Assembly: GCF_009828925.2 (NCBI RefSeq)
Contig: NZ_WUTY02000001.1
Coordinates: 2,386,492-2,450,491, forward strand
Direction of reading: 5' to 3'
From: Methylicorpusculum oleiharenae
GTDB lineage: Bacteria; Pseudomonadota; Gammaproteobacteria; Methylococcales; Methylomonadaceae
DNA: 64,000 bases
In this document: positions 42,968 through 49,875 of the stretch, one piece after another
How positions within the stretch are numbered: the first letter of the stretch is position 1
Layout of the letters: each line of letters opens with the position of its first letter
Notes under the pieces: model-generated
The model's database searches: none
Seen by the model: the letters and a program-made list of their open reading frames with translations, nothing else
What the model was told of the DNA's origin: nothing
Made by a program: the position numbers and the translations under genes

Positions 42968-43168
42968 AGAAAGAACTCCTTGTTTATATGAATTGTATAC
43001 TCAGGTGCTACACCTACGTATAGCCATAAACAATGTACCCAAGAAATGCTCAAGCTCAAGAGATTTACGAAAAAATCACTTTATAAGGAAGAAGATATTG
43101 GATTTATAGGCGATTCGCAGAGACGCAAGATTTTGCGTCTCTCCCGGAATTTACGCCCCACCCTGTCT

Positions 43169-44101
43169 TCATCCCCGGGTATTCATGGCGCCCAGATCAA
43201 TCGTCCCCTCGGCAAACAGCACGGCTTCGCCGCCGACCCGGACGGTCAGGAACTCGGCGCCTTTATGATCCATTTCCAGATTGATGACGCTACGCCGGGA
43301 GCCGGCATCACCGCGGTCCACCGCGAAGGTCTGAGTGCCTTTGCGGGTATGCTCGAACGAACACAGGTAGGCGCAGAACGCCGGTAAGGCGCTGCCCACC
43401 GGTGGGTCTTCGGTCAGGCCGATGCGCGGGCCGACTAAGCGCAGGTTGAAGTCGGCGTCGGCATAAGGTGATTTCGGCGCAAACACTAAGATCTCCTGGG
43501 CGGCGGTCTGCGGCGCGGTGGATTGGCTCCAGGCGCTGTAATCGAAGCGGGCTTTGCGCACCGTTTCATACTGCCAGACCGGCACGATCAGGTAGGGATA
43601 GCCGCAGGAGACCAGCCGGGGCGAATATTTCTTGTGATCAAGTTCGGCTTGGTCCAGGCCTAAAAAGCCGGCCAGTTCTTCGTCGCTGGGCGCAAAGCGG
43701 TCGACGATCGCGCTGACTTTGCGGGTAAATTGCACAAAATAGGGGATGCCGTCCCGGCTGGAGATGTTGGCTTCCACGTTGCCGGCATTTTGTTCGAAGC
43801 TCAGCGAGGTGACCGGGGCGGAGACGTCAATGTCGCCGCAGCAGGCCAGCACATAGGCGGCGGCTATGATCGGATGGCCGCCGAAATTGACTTCGGCTAA
43901 CGGGGAAAAAATCCGCATGCGCCGGGTCTGGGCAGACTTCAGTTGATGAAAAATGAAGACGGTTTCGGACAGGTTCAGTTCTTTGGCAATCAGGGCCATG
44001 GTGTCGGCATTCAGGCCGTCCGCATTGGGAAACACGGCGATCTGTGCGCCATTGAACAGGCGCCGGGTAAACACGTCGGCAATGTAGTAATGGTATTTCA
44101 T
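43169..44101 (-). CDS. PhzF-family isomerase/epimerase-like protein
   Basis: A 310-residue member of the PhzF (phenazine biosynthesis-like, diaminopimelate-epimerase fold) family. Typical N-terminus: YIADVFTRRLFNGAQIAVF, then LNLSETVFI with the catalytic Glu and NFGGHPIIAAAYVL; the second half repeats the fold (GPRIGLTEDPPVGSALPAF). Start overlaps the nirD stop (ATGA), so it is made together with the nitrite reductase, an unusual partnership. Reaction unknown. It shares the raised GC of nirBD, which suggests that the three genes moved together. Confidence 0.88.
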   Translation of the reverse strand: MKYHYYIADVFTRRLFNGAQIAVFPNADGLNADTMALIAKELNLSETVFIFHQLKSAQTRRMRIFSPLAEVNFGGHPIIAAAYVLACCGDIDVSAPVTSLSFEQNAGNVEANISSRDGIPYFVQFTRKVSAIVDRFAPSDEELAGFLGLDQAELDHKKYSPRLVSCGYPYLIVPVWQYETVRKARFDYSAWSQSTAPQTAAQEILVFAPKSPYADADFNLRLVGPRIGLTEDPPVGSALPAFCAYLCSFEHTRKGTQTFAVDRGDAGSRRSVINLEMDHKGAEFLTVRVGGEAVLFAEGTIDLGAMNTRG

Positions 44102-44436
44102 CGCGCCTCCTGAACGCAGACTGCGACCCGGTGGTTGACGATCCGGGTGGGGTAGGTGGCGACTTTGACGGTTTCATCTTCAAAACACACGCCGGTGACC
44201 AAATTGAAATGCTGCTTGTACATCGGCGAGGCGACCATCGGCTGGCCGCCGATATCGCCGATCATGCCGCGGGACAAGACATTGGCCTGGCCAAAGGGGT
44301 CGAAATTATCGAGCGCGTACAGGGCCTGTTCTTTGGGCATATAGAACAAGGCAATCTGATGCGCGTTGACTTTTACGCAGATGCCGGAATCCGGTTGCAG
44401 ATCATCGACACTGCAGACATCTTGCCATTCGCTCAT
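44098..44436 (-). CDS. nirD: Assimilatory nitrite reductase small subunit NirD
   Basis: Rieske-like small subunit (112 residues) of NADH-dependent nitrite reductase. Matches the NirD pattern (WQDVCSVDDLQPDSGICVKV, DPFGQANVLSRGMIGDIGGQPMVASPMYKQHFNL). As in other NirD proteins the usual Rieske Cys/His ligands are mostly absent, though a GVCFEDE segment remains. Two bases after the nirB stop and overlapping the phzF-like start. Confidence 0.95.
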   Translation of the reverse strand: MSEWQDVCSVDDLQPDSGICVKVNAHQIALFYMPKEQALYALDNFDPFGQANVLSRGMIGDIGGQPMVASPMYKQHFNLVTGVCFEDETVKVATYPTRIVNHRVAVCVQEAR

Positions 44437-44438
44437 GG

Positions 44439-46994
44439 TCAGGCTTCCTCTAACAGGGTGAAGTGCTTGTGCGGGGTCAAGGCGGCGCGTTCCTCGTCTT
44501 TGGCCGGGCGGATCTGGCCGCGTTCCTGAACGAACAGGATGCGCTCATCGGGCTGGTCGCTGTTGACGAAATGCCGGAACCGTTTCAGTTTGCCGGGATC
44601 GGCGAGCGTGGTTTTCCATTCGCATTGATAGGTGTCGATGACGCGCTGCATCTGCGCTTCGAGTTCATCGCCCAAGCCCAGGCTGTCGTCGATGACCACG
44701 GACTGCAAATACGCCAGACCGCCTTCCAGGTTGTTCATCCACACCGAGGTGCGTTGCAGGCGGTCGGCGGTGCGCACGTAAAAGATCAGGAGGCGGTCGA
44801 TGTACTTGATCAGCGTGGCTTGATCCAGCTGGGTGGCGAACAGGTCGGCATGGCGCGGCTTCATGCCACCGTTGCCGCAGACATAGAGATTCCAGCCGTG
44901 TTCGGTGGCAATCACGCCGATATCCTTGCTTTGCGCTTCGGCGCATTCGCGGGTGCAGCCGGACACGGCGAATTTGAGCTTGTGCGGCGAGCGCAGGCCC
45001 TTGTAGCGGTTTTCCAGGGACAGTGCCAGACTGACGCTGTCATCGACGCCGTACCGGCACCAAGTGCTGCCGACACAGGATTTGACGGTGCGCAGCGATT
45101 TGCCGTAGGCATGGCCGCTTTCAAAGCCGGCATCGACCAGCTCCCGCCAGATCAGCGGCAGCTGGTCGACGCGGGCGCCGAACAAATCGACCCGTTGAGC
45201 GCCGGTGATTTTGGTATACAGTCCGTATTTTTTGGCAACCTGGCCCAGGACGATCAATTTCTCCGGTTCGATTTCACCTCCGGCGACGCGCGGTACCACT
45301 GAATAGGTGCCGTCTTTTTGAATATTGGCCAGATAATGGTCATTGGTGTCTTGTAAGCCCAGGTGCTCGTTTTTCAGGATGTAGTCATTCCAGTAAGACG
45401 CCAGGATCGAGCCGACCGCCTGTTTGCAAATTTCACAGCCGCGCCCGCGGCCGTGCTTGTCCAGCAATTCAGCGAAAGTCTTGATCTCGCCGACCATAAC
45501 CAAATGGTACAGGCCTTGCCGGGTGTGCGGAAAATGCTCACAGAGGTCGGTATTGACGGCCACGCCCTGTTTTTTCAATTCGGCATCCAACACCGATTTG
45601 AGTAAGGCGCCGCAGCCGCCGCAGCCGGTGGCCGCTTGGGTGGCTTGTTTGAGCGCGCCCAGCGAGGTGCAGCCGGTGTCGATGGCCGCACAGATGTCGC
45701 CTTTGCTGACGTTGTGGCAGGAGCAAATCTGGGCCGAGGCCGGTAGCGCATCGGCGCCCAAGCCGACCGGCTCGCCGGACAGCCGCGGCAGGATCAAGGC
45801 TTCAGGGTGTTCCGGCAGGGCGATGCCGTTCAAGCAGTATTGCAGCAAGGTGCCGTAATCGGCGGCTTCGCCGACCAGCACCGCACCCAGCAGGGTCTTT
45901 TTATCGGCACTGACCACCAGGCGTTTGTAGATATCGCTGTCGCCGTCTTGATAGGTGTACACCAGGGCGCCCGGGGTGGCCGCATGGGCATCCCCGATGC
46001 TGGCGACATCGACACCCATCAGTTTCAGTTTGGTGCTCATGTCGGCACCGGTAAAGGCGCTGCCGGCGCCTTCCAGTACCGAGACGACGGCACGGGCCAT
46101 CGCATAACCCGGTGCCACCAGACCGAAAATCCGGTTATTCCACAGCGCGCATTCACCGATGGCAAAAATGGCCGGATCGGAGGTGCGGCACTGGTTGTCG
46201 ATGACGATGCCGCCGCGCGGGCCGATGTCCAGGCCGCAGGCGGCGGCCAGGTCGTCGCGCGGACGGATGCCGGCGGAAAACAGAATCAAATCGGTTTCCA
46301 GCACATCGCCCCCGGCAAAATTCATTTTATGCAAACAGGTGCTGCCGTCATCGATCAAGGTGGTGTTTTTATTGAGATGGACACTGACGCCCAGCGCTTC
46401 AATTTTGCGTTTCAACAAGGCGCCGCCGCCTTCGTCCAATTGCACCGCCATCAGGCGCGGGGCAAATTCCACGACATGGGTAATCAGTCCCAGATCGGTC
46501 AAGGCTTTGGCCGCTTCCAGCCCGAGCAAGCCGCCGCCGACCACCACGCCGACTTTTGAGCAGGCCGCGGCGCTTTTCATCGCCTCCAGATCTTCGATGG
46601 TGCGGTACACCAGACAGTGCGGACGGTCATGACCGGGCACCGGAGGGACAAAGGGGTAAGAACCGGTAGCCAGAACGAGGGTGTCATACGCGATCACCAC
46701 GCCGCGTTCGGAAATCACCGTCTTGGCGGCGCGGTCAATGGTTTTAGCCTTATCCCCCACATGCACGGTGATGCCGTGTTCGGCAAAAAAGCCGTCCGGT
46801 ACCAGCGACAGATCCTGCGCCGTTTTACCGGCAAAATACTCCGATAAATGCACCCGGTCATAGGCCGGCCGGGGCTCTTCGCAAAACACCACAAGGTGAT
46901 AGCGCGCCTTCGCGGCGCTGTTGACCAGAGCGGCCAAAAAATGTTGACCGACCATGCCATTGCCAATAACGACCAGTGTCTGTGTGTGACTCAT
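44439..46994 (-). CDS. nirB: NADH-dependent nitrite reductase large subunit NirB
   Basis: Cytoplasmic siroheme enzyme reducing nitrite to ammonium with NADH. Starting at ATG 46994 (MSHTQTLVVIGNGMVG) gives 851 residues, the usual length; an upstream in-frame start at 47264 would include the leader and terminator and is rejected. Domains: FAD/NAD(P)-binding (1-about 310), BFD-like [2Fe-2S] (CSCHNVSKGD, CGGCGALL), then sulfite-reductase ferredoxin and siroheme/[4Fe-4S] domain (SCVGSTWCRYGV, VSGCTRECAEAQ, YVCGNGGMKPRHADL). First gene of nirB-nirD-phzF. GC is visibly higher than that of genes to either side. Control elements lie at 46995-47326. Confidence 0.97.
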   Translation of the reverse strand: MSHTQTLVVIGNGMVGQHFLAALVNSAAKARYHLVVFCEEPRPAYDRVHLSEYFAGKTAQDLSLVPDGFFAEHGITVHVGDKAKTIDRAAKTVISERGVVIAYDTLVLATGSYPFVPPVPGHDRPHCLVYRTIEDLEAMKSAAACSKVGVVVGGGLLGLEAAKALTDLGLITHVVEFAPRLMAVQLDEGGGALLKRKIEALGVSVHLNKNTTLIDDGSTCLHKMNFAGGDVLETDLILFSAGIRPRDDLAAACGLDIGPRGGIVIDNQCRTSDPAIFAIGECALWNNRIFGLVAPGYAMARAVVSVLEGAGSAFTGADMSTKLKLMGVDVASIGDAHAATPGALVYTYQDGDSDIYKRLVVSADKKTLLGAVLVGEAADYGTLLQYCLNGIALPEHPEALILPRLSGEPVGLGADALPASAQICSCHNVSKGDICAAIDTGCTSLGALKQATQAATGCGGCGALLKSVLDAELKKQGVAVNTDLCEHFPHTRQGLYHLVMVGEIKTFAELLDKHGRGRGCEICKQAVGSILASYWNDYILKNEHLGLQDTNDHYLANIQKDGTYSVVPRVAGGEIEPEKLIVLGQVAKKYGLYTKITGAQRVDLFGARVDQLPLIWRELVDAGFESGHAYGKSLRTVKSCVGSTWCRYGVDDSVSLALSLENRYKGLRSPHKLKFAVSGCTRECAEAQSKDIGVIATEHGWNLYVCGNGGMKPRHADLFATQLDQATLIKYIDRLLIFYVRTADRLQRTSVWMNNLEGGLAYLQSVVIDDSLGLGDELEAQMQRVIDTYQCEWKTTLADPGKLKRFRHFVNSDQPDERILFVQERGQIRPAKDEERAALTPHKHFTLLEEA

Positions 46995-47045
46995 CGGTAA
47001 CCCCGGATCTGCTGCAAAGAAAACGTAAAAACCTAAATTTCGGGC

Positions 47046-47095
47046 AAAAAAAAAGGCGTCCGGCCCACGTGAAAAAATCACTGAACCCGGACGCC
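47046..47095 (-). terminator. Intrinsic terminator inside the nirB leader (attenuator)
   Basis: On the minus strand GGCGTCCGG (plus 47087-47095) pairs with CCGGACGCC (plus 47055-47063) and is followed by nine T. It lies about 50 bp upstream of nirB with no other minus-strand gene above it, so it must be read through for nirB to be expressed. This fits antitermination by an ANTAR protein. Confidence 0.88.
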
Positions 47096-47144
47096 ATTGC
47101 CCCAAAATCATAACCGCTCCGACGAGGAGCTTTGTCTCAACTAA

Positions 47145-47160
47145 AGCAAAGGTAATGCCA
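47145..47160 (-). promoter_or_regulatory. Sigma-54 promoter for nirB-nirD-phzF
   Basis: Minus-strand TGGCATTACCTTTGCT has the invariant GG and GC separated by ten bases and matches the TGGCA...TTGCT consensus. It predicts RNA starting near 47134, that is about 40 nt before the leader terminator and 140 nt before the nirB start. Confidence 0.75.
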
Positions 47161-47311
47161 GAAAGACCGGTAAGGCCGACAAAGAAGTGTAAGTGCTTGT
47201 TTGGTAAAGAATCAAAAGCGAACCATCCGGCCCTGAGCCCAACAACACAGCGTCGGCAACGCACAGCAACCCGTCAGGAGCGCACTGATTCGGGGAGAAA
47301 GAAGAGGTATT

Positions 47312-47326
47312 GCACTATTGTGGAGC
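47312..47326 (-). promoter_or_regulatory. NtrC-like enhancer site
   Basis: GCACTATTGTGGAGC matches 13 of 15 positions of the GCAC-N7-GTGC type NtrC site as found upstream of glnA (GCACTATTTTGGTGC). It is about 150 bp upstream of the sigma-54 site, a usual enhancer distance. Confidence 0.6.
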
Positions 47327-47344
47327 GAAAACTCGTCAGATACG

Positions 47345-47653
47345 CCAAATAGGATGTGCCGACGCCAGGAGGCGCATCTGTCGGGTTACCCAATACTTTT
47401 AAACTCAGGCATTTCATTTTCCCAATTTTTTTCATAAAAGCCTTGCTTCACATAAAGGTTTTCGTTGTTTTACCTATCAAAAGGCATCACGCAACACCTC
47501 AATCTTGTTGATCAACCAATGCTTGTATTTCCGATCGGCAAGATTGACGGTGAAAAACCATAGGGCGTTCGGTAGGTAAAAGCGTCGGTATTCGGTTAGG
47601 GTTTATTTGAATCGCGAACGATGCGCCTCCTATCGTCGGCACATCCTATTTGG
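47345..47653. mobile_element. Miniature inverted-repeat element, family D
   Basis: 309 bp with 34-bp terminal inverted repeats (47345-47378 and 47620-47653) that differ at two positions; outer ends CCAAATAGGATGTGCCGACG. Inner inverted repeats (CAATCTTG / CAAGATTG; TTTTACCTA / TAGGTAAAA) would let the whole unit fold. No coding frame. It separates the nirB control region from the divergent transporter gene. Confidence 0.88.
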
Positions 47654-47676
47654 TTAACATTATCGAGTTAACCCGT

Positions 47677-47831: not shown

Positions 47832-49295
47832 ATGAATATTTTCAGCTTTTCCGGGAAAATAAAAATCCTTCACATGACCTGGATAGCGTTTTTTATCAGT
47901 TTTGTCGTTTGGTTTAACCATGCGCCGCTGATGCTGATGATCATGACGTCAATGGATTTGAGCGAATCGGAAGTGGCTATTTTGTTGTTGCTTAATTTTG
48001 CCTTGCCGATTCCAGCCCGTATCATAATCGGAATAGTTGTCGACCGGTTTGGTGCCAAGATCAGCTACAGCACCTTATTGGCCTTGTGCAGTTTGCCCTG
48101 TTTTGCTTTTGCTGCCGCCGAAACGTTTCAACAACTGGCCTGGGCAAGGTTTGCTCTGGGCTTTGTCGGTGCCGGATTTGTGATCGGTATTCGCATGATT
48201 GGCGACTGGTTTCCATCCAGACAAGTCGGTATCGCCGAGGGTCTCTATGGTGGTTGGGGCAATTTCGGTTCGGCTGCGGCAACGCTGGTTTTACCCGGAC
48301 TTGCGCTTTATTTTGGTGCGGAGCAAGGCTGGCGCTACGCCATTGCCGTTACCGGTGTTCTATCGCTAGCCTATGCTTTTATTTACTATCAAAACGTCGA
48401 AGACACGCCGCCACATGTTCCTTACCTGAAACCCAAACGTTCGGGTGCGATAGAAGTGACCAGCATCAGGGATCTTTTCTTCTATATAGCCACCACCGTG
48501 CCGCTTTATGCCGCCATGTCGCTGTTGACCTGGAAACTCTCCACTCCTGAAGCCGATTTACTGTCCGGTTCGTGGGTTGTTGCCATTAATCTGTTAATTT
48601 GGGTATTGTTCTTTTTTCATGCACACCGGATCGTGGATATCAATGCTGATCGGCTTAGTGGGCCTATAGACAGTATTCATCGTTATTCGTTTAAACAAGT
48701 CAGTATTCTCAGTGTGGCCTATTTGATGACCTTCGGTTCCAAACTGGCCGTGGTGTCTATGTTGCCCATTTTTTTCTTCACGACTTACCGGGAAACCCAG
48801 CCGATTTCGATGATAGATGCGGGTCTGCTCTCGTCCAGTTTTATTTTTATGAATTTAATCGCACGTCCTGCCGGAGGCTGGCTCAGTGACAGAATAGGCA
48901 GAAGATTTTCTTTAATGATTTTTATGAGCGGAACGGCGTTCGGTTATTTTATGATGTCTTTCATAGCCAGTGATTGGCCGATTTATTTGACGGTAACGGT
49001 CACCATCATTTGTTCGATATTTATTCAGGCGGCCGAAGGTGCCGTCTTTGCGATTGCGCCCTTGATAAAACGATCTATAACCGGACAGATAGCCGGTATC
49101 ATAGGGGCTTATGGCAATGCCGGAGCGATTGTATTTCTTGTTTTGATGAGCATGGCCACGCCGTCGATTTTTTTCATAGGACTGGGTGTTTGTTCGGTGG
49201 CGGCATTGATATTAATATACTGGCTTGAGGAACCCAAAGAATTCATAACAGAAATCATGGCCGATGGCACGCTCGTTAAAATCGAACTGGACTGA
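47832..49295 (+). CDS. NarK/NNP-family nitrate/nitrite transporter
   Basis: Inner-membrane major facilitator of the nitrate-nitrite porter family, 487 residues with about twelve helices. Characteristic segments: PARIIIGIVVDRFGAK in the loop after helix 2, the nitrate-signature-like GGWGNFGSAAATLVLP in helix 5, and GAYGNAGAIVFLVLM in helix 11. Supplies nitrate or nitrite to the divergent nirBD operon. Followed two bases later by the NasT-like gene, so transporter and antiterminator are one operon. Confidence 0.93.
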   Translation: MNIFSFSGKIKILHMTWIAFFISFVVWFNHAPLMLMIMTSMDLSESEVAILLLLNFALPIPARIIIGIVVDRFGAKISYSTLLALCSLPCFAFAAAETFQQLAWARFALGFVGAGFVIGIRMIGDWFPSRQVGIAEGLYGGWGNFGSAAATLVLPGLALYFGAEQGWRYAIAVTGVLSLAYAFIYYQNVEDTPPHVPYLKPKRSGAIEVTSIRDLFFYIATTVPLYAAMSLLTWKLSTPEADLLSGSWVVAINLLIWVLFFFHAHRIVDINADRLSGPIDSIHRYSFKQVSILSVAYLMTFGSKLAVVSMLPIFFFTTYRETQPISMIDAGLLSSSFIFMNLIARPAGGWLSDRIGRRFSLMIFMSGTAFGYFMMSFIASDWPIYLTVTVTIICSIFIQAAEGAVFAIAPLIKRSITGQIAGIIGAYGNAGAIVFLVLMSMATPSIFFIGLGVCSVAALILIYWLEEPKEFITEIMADGTLVKIELD

Positions 49296-49296
49296 T

Positions 49297-49875
49297 ATGA
49301 AGCCCTTGAAAGTACTGATTGTCGACGAAGTGCAATCCGATAAACTGTTGGAAGAGACGCTGCAGAAATACGGTTTTGAGATTGCCTGTCTGCCGCTTCA
49401 ATCGCTGGATCTCAGCGCGATTGTCTTGTCGCTGTTGCCGGATATCGTTGTACTCAACGTATTTACCCCGACACAAGCGATGCTTAAAGCCATTTTGACC
49501 ATCAATCAAAGTCATTCGGTACCGGTCATTATTTTTGCCGAGGATCAGGATGCCGAAACGATTAATCAGGTTATCAAAGCCGGTGTCAGTGCCTATATTG
49601 TCGATGGTCTCGACACCAAACGGATTAAAACCATCATCGACATTGCGATTGCCCGATTTAGGGAACAGCAGGCTCTGAAAGATGAACTCAAAAAAACCAA
49701 ATCGCAACTGGAAGAGCGCAAGTTGATAGACAGAGCCAAAGGTCTGCTAATGAAATCGCAAGGCTACAACGAAGATGAGGCCTATCATGCGTTAAGAAAG
49801 CTGGCGATGGATAGAAATATTGCGATCGGTGAAATGGCCAAAAACGTAATTTCCATGGCGGATTTATTGAAGTGA
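49297..49875 (+). CDS. nasT: NasT-type receiver-like/ANTAR antiterminator
   Basis: A 192-residue RNA-binding regulator. The receiver-like domain (1-125) keeps the acidic pair Asp10-Glu11 but has Asn54 at the phosphoacceptor position (PDIVVLNVFTP), so it is not a conventional phosphorylated receiver. A coiled coil (REQQALKDELKKTKSQLEERK) leads to the ANTAR domain (IDRAKGLLMKSQGYNEDEAYHALRKLA). ATG 49297 is one base after the transporter stop. ANTAR proteins bind leader hairpins and prevent termination; the leader terminator of nirB is the obvious target. No nasS sensor gene lies next to it. Confidence 0.88.
   Translation: MKPLKVLIVDEVQSDKLLEETLQKYGFEIACLPLQSLDLSAIVLSLLPDIVVLNVFTPTQAMLKAILTINQSHSVPVIIFAEDQDAETINQVIKAGVSAYIVDGLDTKRIKTIIDIAIARFREQQALKDELKKTKSQLEERKLIDRAKGLLMKSQGYNEDEAYHALRKLAMDRNIAIGEMAKNVISMADLLK

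Follow-up and report, generated by a model that had tools for sequence, protein, structure and literature searches.

A probable ANTAR leader of reduced form, with P2 and no canonical upstream hexaloop, before nirB of Methylicorpusculum oleiharenae

ANTAR antitermination is a regulatory scheme already known from nasF of Klebsiella, and P2 is the second hairpin of the ANTAR target RNAs, both as described in PMC3369931; the C:G pair that closes the ANTAR hexaloop was derived from systematic evolution of ligands by exponential enrichment (SELEX), according to PMC7496416. In Pseudomonas, RpoN, NtrC and NasT are reported to control nirBD via a leader terminator (PMC12830290, PMC8092218, citing Romeo 2012 and Nie 2024). 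In Paracoccus denitrificans, PMC5424462 describes reporter fusions in which the nasA leader hairpins HI and HII were mutated, as well as a comparison of how a chromosomal HI mutant and a nasT mutant grow on nitrate. The structure of EutV with RNA led its authors to question the need for both hairpins if one dimer binds only one hexaloop, and they propose a recruitment-hairpin model; the same paper also proposes single-hexaloop sites for cases in which a transcribing polymerase imposes no time limit (PMC8934654). In the literature that we searched, neither antitermination by an ANTAR leader through one hexaloop alone nor a NasT leader in a methanotroph was reported. Here, we describe the leader of the nitrite reductase genes nirBD in a stretch of 64,000 nucleotides from the methanotroph Methylicorpusculum oleiharenae (contig NZ_WUTY02000001.1, positions 2,386,492 to 2,450,491; hereafter the window, in whose own numbering positions are given), and we weigh how NasT may read it.

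The P2 hairpin and terminator of the nirB leader

The leader of nirB, which encodes the nitrite reductase large subunit (44439..46994, ATG at 46994; TIGR02374, 1099 bits against a cutoff of 578.35), holds a canonical ANTAR P2 hexaloop that overlaps a terminator; the gene and all of its leader features lie on the minus strand. This antiterminator hairpin, GGGC-AAUGGC-GUCC (47089..47102), has a loop with A at position 1 (A1) and G at position 4 (G4), closed by C:G. The start of the terminator 5' arm falls within this loop and the 3' stem, such that hairpin and terminator share bases and are mutually exclusive. The intrinsic terminator (47046..47095) has an outer stem of 9 bp, longer with inner pairs, whose arms were read as GGCGTCCGG (47095-47087) and CCGGACGCC (47063-47055), with T9 at 47054-47046. 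Upstream lies the 5' hairpin H0 (47116..47130), GCUCC-UCGUC-GGAGC with a five-base loop, which corresponds to a canonical hexaloop hairpin of other leaders. It is followed by the 13-nt linker GGUUAUGAUUUUG (47103..47115), which stands at P1's place in complete leaders and contains an AUG (47111-47109) 5 nt after GGAG. The order on the minus strand is thus promoter, H0, linker, GGGCAATGGCGTCC and terminator, the end of T9 (47046) lying 51 nt before the nirB ATG.

A preliminary description of this DNA had given both the nine-base-pair terminator with T9 and the sequence of H0 correctly, but had taken H0 to be the only hairpin before the terminator, overlooking P2 (47102-47089) and its overlap with the terminator 5' arm. 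Its statement that the usual pair of A-N-N-G hexaloop hairpins is missing stands for a pair, which the leader does not have, but not for hexaloops altogether, as P2 is one. Likewise, the unusual recognition that it suggested is consistent with the five-base loop upstream and the absence of the usual P1, but not with a P2 that is present and conserved.

Sigma-54 promoters carry a TGGCA...TTGC element with GG-N10-GC at -24/-12. The promoter TGGCATTACCTTTGCT (47145..47160), read where the preliminary description had placed it, fits this consensus in both respects and, from its spacing, predicts a start (+1) near 47134; GGCA...GC-type elements also lie upstream of related leaders. The NtrC-like palindrome CGCTCCACAATAGTGCA (47311..47327), which precedes the sigma-54 site by 150 nt, had been noted as well and is present though modest: it matches 9 of 12 consensus positions in the window (shuffle P 0.10), and its equally spaced counterparts in three sequences of the two congeneric genomes match 10 of the 12 (P 0.00-0.02).

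The leader from 46995 to 47134, singled out for folding in that description, is more stable when folded than its dinucleotide shuffles, one of 200 of which equalled it (z -3.07). Folded only as far as P2, it is predicted to consist of H0 and P2; the terminator is visible in the minimum free energy fold and absent from a simple consensus scan, which covers loops of 3-8 only and lists H0. Predicted energies are -3.4 kcal/mol for P2 alone and -26.0 kcal/mol for the terminator, and P2, being weak on its own, should depend on a protein to keep it folded. Three copies of the terminator-arm pattern GGCGTC-N12-42-GACGCCTTTT were found in the 5.85 Mb genome, namely in the window's leader, in the duplicate of that leader and before nrtA, and none of its reversed control. 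An Rfam scan of the entire window at gathering threshold gave no match, a low-stringency scan of the nirB leader gave two chance-like matches only, and RF00625 (P11) did not match at that leader. One candidate for a hidden P1, GAG-ACAAAG-CUC, was rejected by eye, its 5' arm lying upstream of the predicted +1 and its loop position 4 being A and not G.

Next to nirB lies nirD, for the nitrite reductase small subunit (44098..44436, minus strand; TIGR02378, 116.8 bits, cutoff 74.65). The nirBD-phzF block and its leader are found twice in the genome (window 43118-47648 against L031:3767-8297, 99.25% over 4531 bp), and the congener G002 likewise has two nirB leaders. One edge of this duplication falls inside an inverted-repeat element with GCGTCGGCACATCCTA ends (~47340-47655), between narK and nirB, parts of which are present in G002 and again in L031; it does not adjoin nirB in G001.

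Reduced nirB leaders and complete nrtA leaders

No canonical upstream hexaloop (P1, A1/G4, at least 4 bp) is present in the 60 nt upstream of P2 in the window's nirB leader. The same holds for the window's genus, the Methylotuvimicrobium group and the Methylomonas group, in which 14/14 nirB leaders have P2 and no canonical hexaloop upstream. Among 25 nirB-proximal leaders, from which duplicates had been removed beforehand and in which L015, L041 and L043 were put in groups by their leaders, the 15 without such a hexaloop are four of the window's genus, three of Methylotuvimicrobium, seven of Methylomonas, and L054; with L054 among them, the loss extends beyond the named groups. The reduced leader seems not to be decaying, since 47 of the 48 positions from H0 to P2 are invariant in the genus (four congeneric sequences from three genomes). 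In the same four sequences, the invariant positions number 14/16 in the sigma-54 element, 25/35 in the rest of the terminator, 48/52 after the terminator and 138/212 upstream of the promoter.

Terminators were surveyed in 113 loci, made up of 33 loci or stretches and the best 80 of at least 583 confirmed candidates; in some cases one genome contributes duplicates, so that rows are not independent. Of the 26 terminators lying on the nirB strand no more than 400 nt before the gene, 25 have a canonical P2 that overlaps the 5' arm (the exception is L095), as do 20 of the 137 other terminators. Fourteen of these 20, classified afterwards, precede nas genes (seven before nrtA; seven rows in L113 and L114), and for the remaining six (L026, L039, L040, L041, L058, L068) no tie to nas genes could be made. 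The nirB start motif recognised nirB in 101/113 loci; a looser script found the start in 11 of the 12 missed, with no P2 within 450 nt before nirB in those 11. Imperfect terminator stems in L007, L012, L017, L046 and L054 fell below the stem cut-off of the survey and were found by a separate search. Loop positions 2-3 vary in the window's genus and a neighbour (AAUGGC, ACUGGC, AUUGGC), where A1/G4, itself a search criterion, is kept. In a pair of Marinobacterium / Oceanospirillaceae loci, one has a single terminator with GGC-AATGGC-GCC hexaloop arms before nasA (L113:5072-5116) and the other has three (L114:4743-5463), possibly tandem ANTAR sites.

Several relatives carry nrtA-nrtB-nrtC-porin-nirB-nirD in a row, mostly with nasA behind, and have the leader before nrtA. 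In these nrtA leaders, a GGCA-type element resembling a sigma-54 promoter is followed by three hexaloop hairpins (H0, P1 and P2), most of which have A1 and G4. The three-helix structure covaries over 20 leaders (13 before nrtA, 7 before nirB) that were selected for showing the hairpins, with 96.7% of cells paired and six pairs changed on both sides (1/500 shuffles as high); the covariation score was reached by 0/500 shuffles, and slid controls were far lower.

A search with the P11 family proved too insensitive to serve as a tally (12/61 genomes at E 1; 12/369 class genomes at E 0.001), and R1, a model built from the 20 three-hairpin leaders, was therefore run on 61 genomes in its place with a cut-off of E <=1e-4. 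Within the window's family, R1 matched 22/24 ANTAR-positive and 0/13 ANTAR-negative genomes (Fisher 2.9e-8), or 10/12 against 0/13 once the 12 genomes that supplied training sequences were removed. The two ANTAR-positive genomes without a match are G006, which is 77% complete, and G017, whose ANTAR match is weaker. One of the 22 positives, G028, is doubtful, because its match (L190, E 8.4e-5) lacks a canonical P2 with a T run behind it. Among distinct nrtA-type leaders, counted without L190 and with L188, whose downstream gene is unchecked, 21/22 have at least one canonical upstream hexaloop, L156 being the exception.

The window's own genome has one credible R1 match (C1:2450879-2450949, 62 bits, E 2.2e-11), some 390 bp past the window's end, and two further matches that are chance-like (E 1.87 and 7.25). 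This nrtA leader has the hairpins CCCC-AGUGCU-GGGG, GCUC-ACUGUC-GAGC and GAC-AAAGGC-GUC, and the genes behind it, the nitrate reductase operon, are nrtABC-porin-(nirB-like flavin adenine dinucleotide protein)-nasA. In six genomes with reduced nirB leaders (G000, G001, G002, G011, G012, G030; genera g1, g10, g11, g29), the R1-matched leader has a canonical P1 in every case and a canonical H0 in five. By eye, the H0 of the window's nirB leader looks like a canonical H0 minus one loop base (UCGUC against ACCGUC in L149 or AUCGUA in L007), and we infer from these sequences that the reduced leader was derived from the full three-hexaloop form.

NasT and candidate sensors

The NasT-type ANTAR protein that the preliminary description had placed at 49297-49875 is confirmed (plus strand; receiver-like domain followed by an ANTAR domain, Pfam 1.3e-19) and is the only ANTAR match in the genome. 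Directly upstream of nasT lies a gene for a NarK-type nitrate/nitrite transporter of the major facilitator superfamily (47832..49295, plus strand; TIGR00886, 298.7 bits, below the cutoff of 311.7), and nasT follows a NarK-type gene in G000, G001, G011, G012 and G030. By eye, the receiver-like domain has N at the expected phosphorylated-D position, which is also the case for most members of the set of 19 proteins used for comparison. The PDB matches of NasT include AmiR and entries that we take to be EutV, NasR and a mycobacterial antiterminator. Among the EutV residues described as contacting the hexaloop (PMC8934654), NasT keeps the equivalents of R142, K143, K149, E160, Y164, R168 and M172, with a numbering offset of 2 worked out in this analysis, and has R at K147. 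A change of the binding face that would account for the lost P1 was looked for and not seen, as the positions compared in the 19 proteins do not separate reduced-leader from complete-leader lineages.

No NasS, the cytoplasmic, NrtA-like nitrate-binding partner of NasT, was found in the genome as a sensor. Its two PF13379 proteins, neither adjoining nasT, are a component of nrtABC with a signal-like N-terminus and a lipoprotein-like paralogue (signals judged by eye). In 12/15 neighbourhoods viewed, a conserved GAF-domain protein of about 308 aa directly follows nasT (e.g., L156:6307-7230); it occurs in 16/24 ANTAR-positive and 0/13 ANTAR-negative family genomes, has no match in the window's genome, and may take the role of NasS as the sensor for NasT. 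Among ANTAR-positive genomes, it is missing from the six whose nirB leaders are reduced and from G015 and G017. In G015, a NasS-like PF13379 protein adjoins an ANTAR protein with the receiver aspartate kept (L158:4639-5919). In G026 (L153:6759-7805, by Pfam) and G016 (L154:4116-5390, by eye), a gene for an EAL-domain, cyclic di-GMP phosphodiesterase-like protein follows nasT and the GAF protein lies elsewhere; cyclic di-GMP is reported to inhibit NasT in Pseudomonas putida (review PMC12830290).

Readings of the reduced leader and comparison with known systems

Sigma-54 initiation combined with NasT antitermination of nirBD via P2 is the best reading of this locus and, on comparative sequence evidence, a highly probable one. 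The double control put forward in the preliminary description, an NtrC/sigma-54 start followed by a NasT-controlled terminator, is well supported by the same comparisons, although the part of its interpretation that denied a hexaloop was wrong. At low nitrogen, NtrC, if it is used here, and sigma-54 would start the nirBD transcript; when active NasT is lacking, the leader terminator would form and the transcript would end, while NasT bound to the P2 hexaloop would, by family precedent, keep the terminator 5' arm unpaired and allow nirBD to be made. The leader would thus be a NalA-like one of nitrate assimilation. In this lineage, nirBD lies apart from the nas operon, and its leader is reduced, having P2 but no P1 and no hexaloop on the 5' hairpin. 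More tentatively, as a possibility that we place somewhat short of an even chance, nirB would be governed by a single-hexaloop ANTAR switch, with NasT acting via P2 alone, against the rule that two hexaloops are obligatory, and the same NasT reading the three-hexaloop leader of nrtABC...nasA; the threshold of induction within one regulon would in that case depend on the number of hexaloops, and the site left by P1, which in this genus carries a Shine-Dalgarno sequence and an AUG, may add a translational input. Our guess is that nirB would need more free NasT than nrt-nasA and would thus switch on at a higher threshold.

Several points weigh against the best reading. Deletion of P1 is reported to have lowered EutV induction (PMC3369931), both hexaloops are called obligatory in PMC8934654, and NasR binding to P2 alone is given as about 12 times weaker in PMC7496416. 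P2 by itself (-3.4 kcal/mol) is much less stable than the terminator (-26.0), and NasT has D, N and A at EutV N173, R175 and R177, the last equivalent being R in only one of the 19 proteins (L158). R1 misses the window's nirB leader at E 10 in the genome and with filters off in L001, and because there is no match even at E 10, this is not a complete leader. At E 1e-4, R1 had no match in 24 genomes outside the family, 16 of them ANTAR-positive, so that its co-occurrence with ANTAR holds inside the family only. The presence of a nirB leader alone, set against that of ANTAR, is not significant (10/23 versus 0/7, P 0.064), and the window's NtrC-like site, taken alone, is not above chance.

It is rather unlikely that H0 with its five-base loop still acts as the P1 recruitment hairpin for NasT, which would make the leader an ordinary two-hairpin ANTAR element with an odd loop tolerated, in line with the unusual recognition of the preliminary description. 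The H0 stem is kept through a two-sided change (GCUCC/GGAGC in the window, ACUCC/GGAGU in L004, L039 and L041), H0 is invariant in the genus with a G still in its loop, and the 13-nt linker to P2 is near the 5-12 nt of eut leaders (PMC3369931); however, a linker of 14 nt already reduced induction strongly at eutP, as stated in that source, and the H0 loops, judged by eye, break the A1/G4 rule (UCGUC in the window, UAAC or UAAU in L004, L039 and L041, irregular in the Methylomonas group), whereas 5/6 nrtA leaders of the same lineages keep A1/G4 in H0.

That a leader open reading frame helps to set read-through appears improbable. GGAG in the H0 3' arm would serve as a Shine-Dalgarno sequence for the AUG at 47111, the ribosome would cover P2 and the terminator, and the opening and closing of H0 would exert control. 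Such a frame extends through the terminator and would explain the invariant linker, and AUG with GGAG is present in the four genus sequences examined, as is UUG with GGAG in three of the Methylotuvimicrobium group. Yet the frame is not conserved, having 25 codons in G001 and continuing into nirB in the window; of the 12 remaining leaders examined, L043 (GTG) alone combines a start after such a sequence with at least eight codons; GGAG is common in the H0 of leaders without the frame; and a Shine-Dalgarno sequence with a start codon should not be rare by chance. Least probable of all is that the terminator simply attenuates or insulates at a constant level of read-through, with P2 a relic outside NasT control; this would suit the absence of P1 and the failure of R1 to recognise the nirB leader but sits poorly with the 47/48 positions kept in the genus and with P2 in all 14 reduced leaders, where P2 was a search criterion and the survey found a single terminator before nirB without it.

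Under the preferred reading, NasT antitermination via P2, one ANTAR protein in one genome would serve a three-hexaloop and a single-hexaloop leader, each of which has a sigma-54-type promoter and belongs to nitrate assimilation. With two natural leaders for one NasT, the role of hexaloop number becomes directly testable, the nirB leader being a natural single-hexaloop candidate and the nrtA leader its three-hexaloop control. For methanotroph biology, this predicts a switching of nitrite reduction relative to nitrate uptake and reduction.

Among described systems, NalA of Pseudomonas nirBD has in common with this locus the gene, the promoter type, the leader terminator and NasT as antiterminator, as far as PMC12830290 and PMC8092218 describe it; in contrast to NalA, the window's genome has no NasS that was found, its nirB leader has no P1, and its 5' hairpin has no hexaloop. 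The own nrtA leader aligns end to end with Rfam RF00625 (P11, a Pseudomonas small RNA), including GACAAAGGCGUC, at 32.2 bits, below the gathering score of 70, which no match in 61 relatives exceeded; we infer that P11 and NalA are one RNA. The only P11 match above threshold in 369 class genomes, and the strongest, is L205, with loops AACGUG (on a three-pair stem, by eye), ACAGAG and AAAGGC; unlike the window's nirB leader it has hexaloops upstream of P2, and these sequences suggest that leaders with three hexaloops may also occur outside the methanotrophs. With the dual-hexaloop element of EutV at eutP and NasR at nasF, as described in PMC3369931, PMC7496416 and PMC8934654, the window shares a P2 hexaloop with A1/G4 and C:G closing that is exclusive with the terminator, but it has one hexaloop at nirB and three at nrtA, not two. 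The scheme of sigma-54 and NasT is known, and what is new is the reduced shape of the nirB leader, with P2 and no canonical hexaloop upstream.

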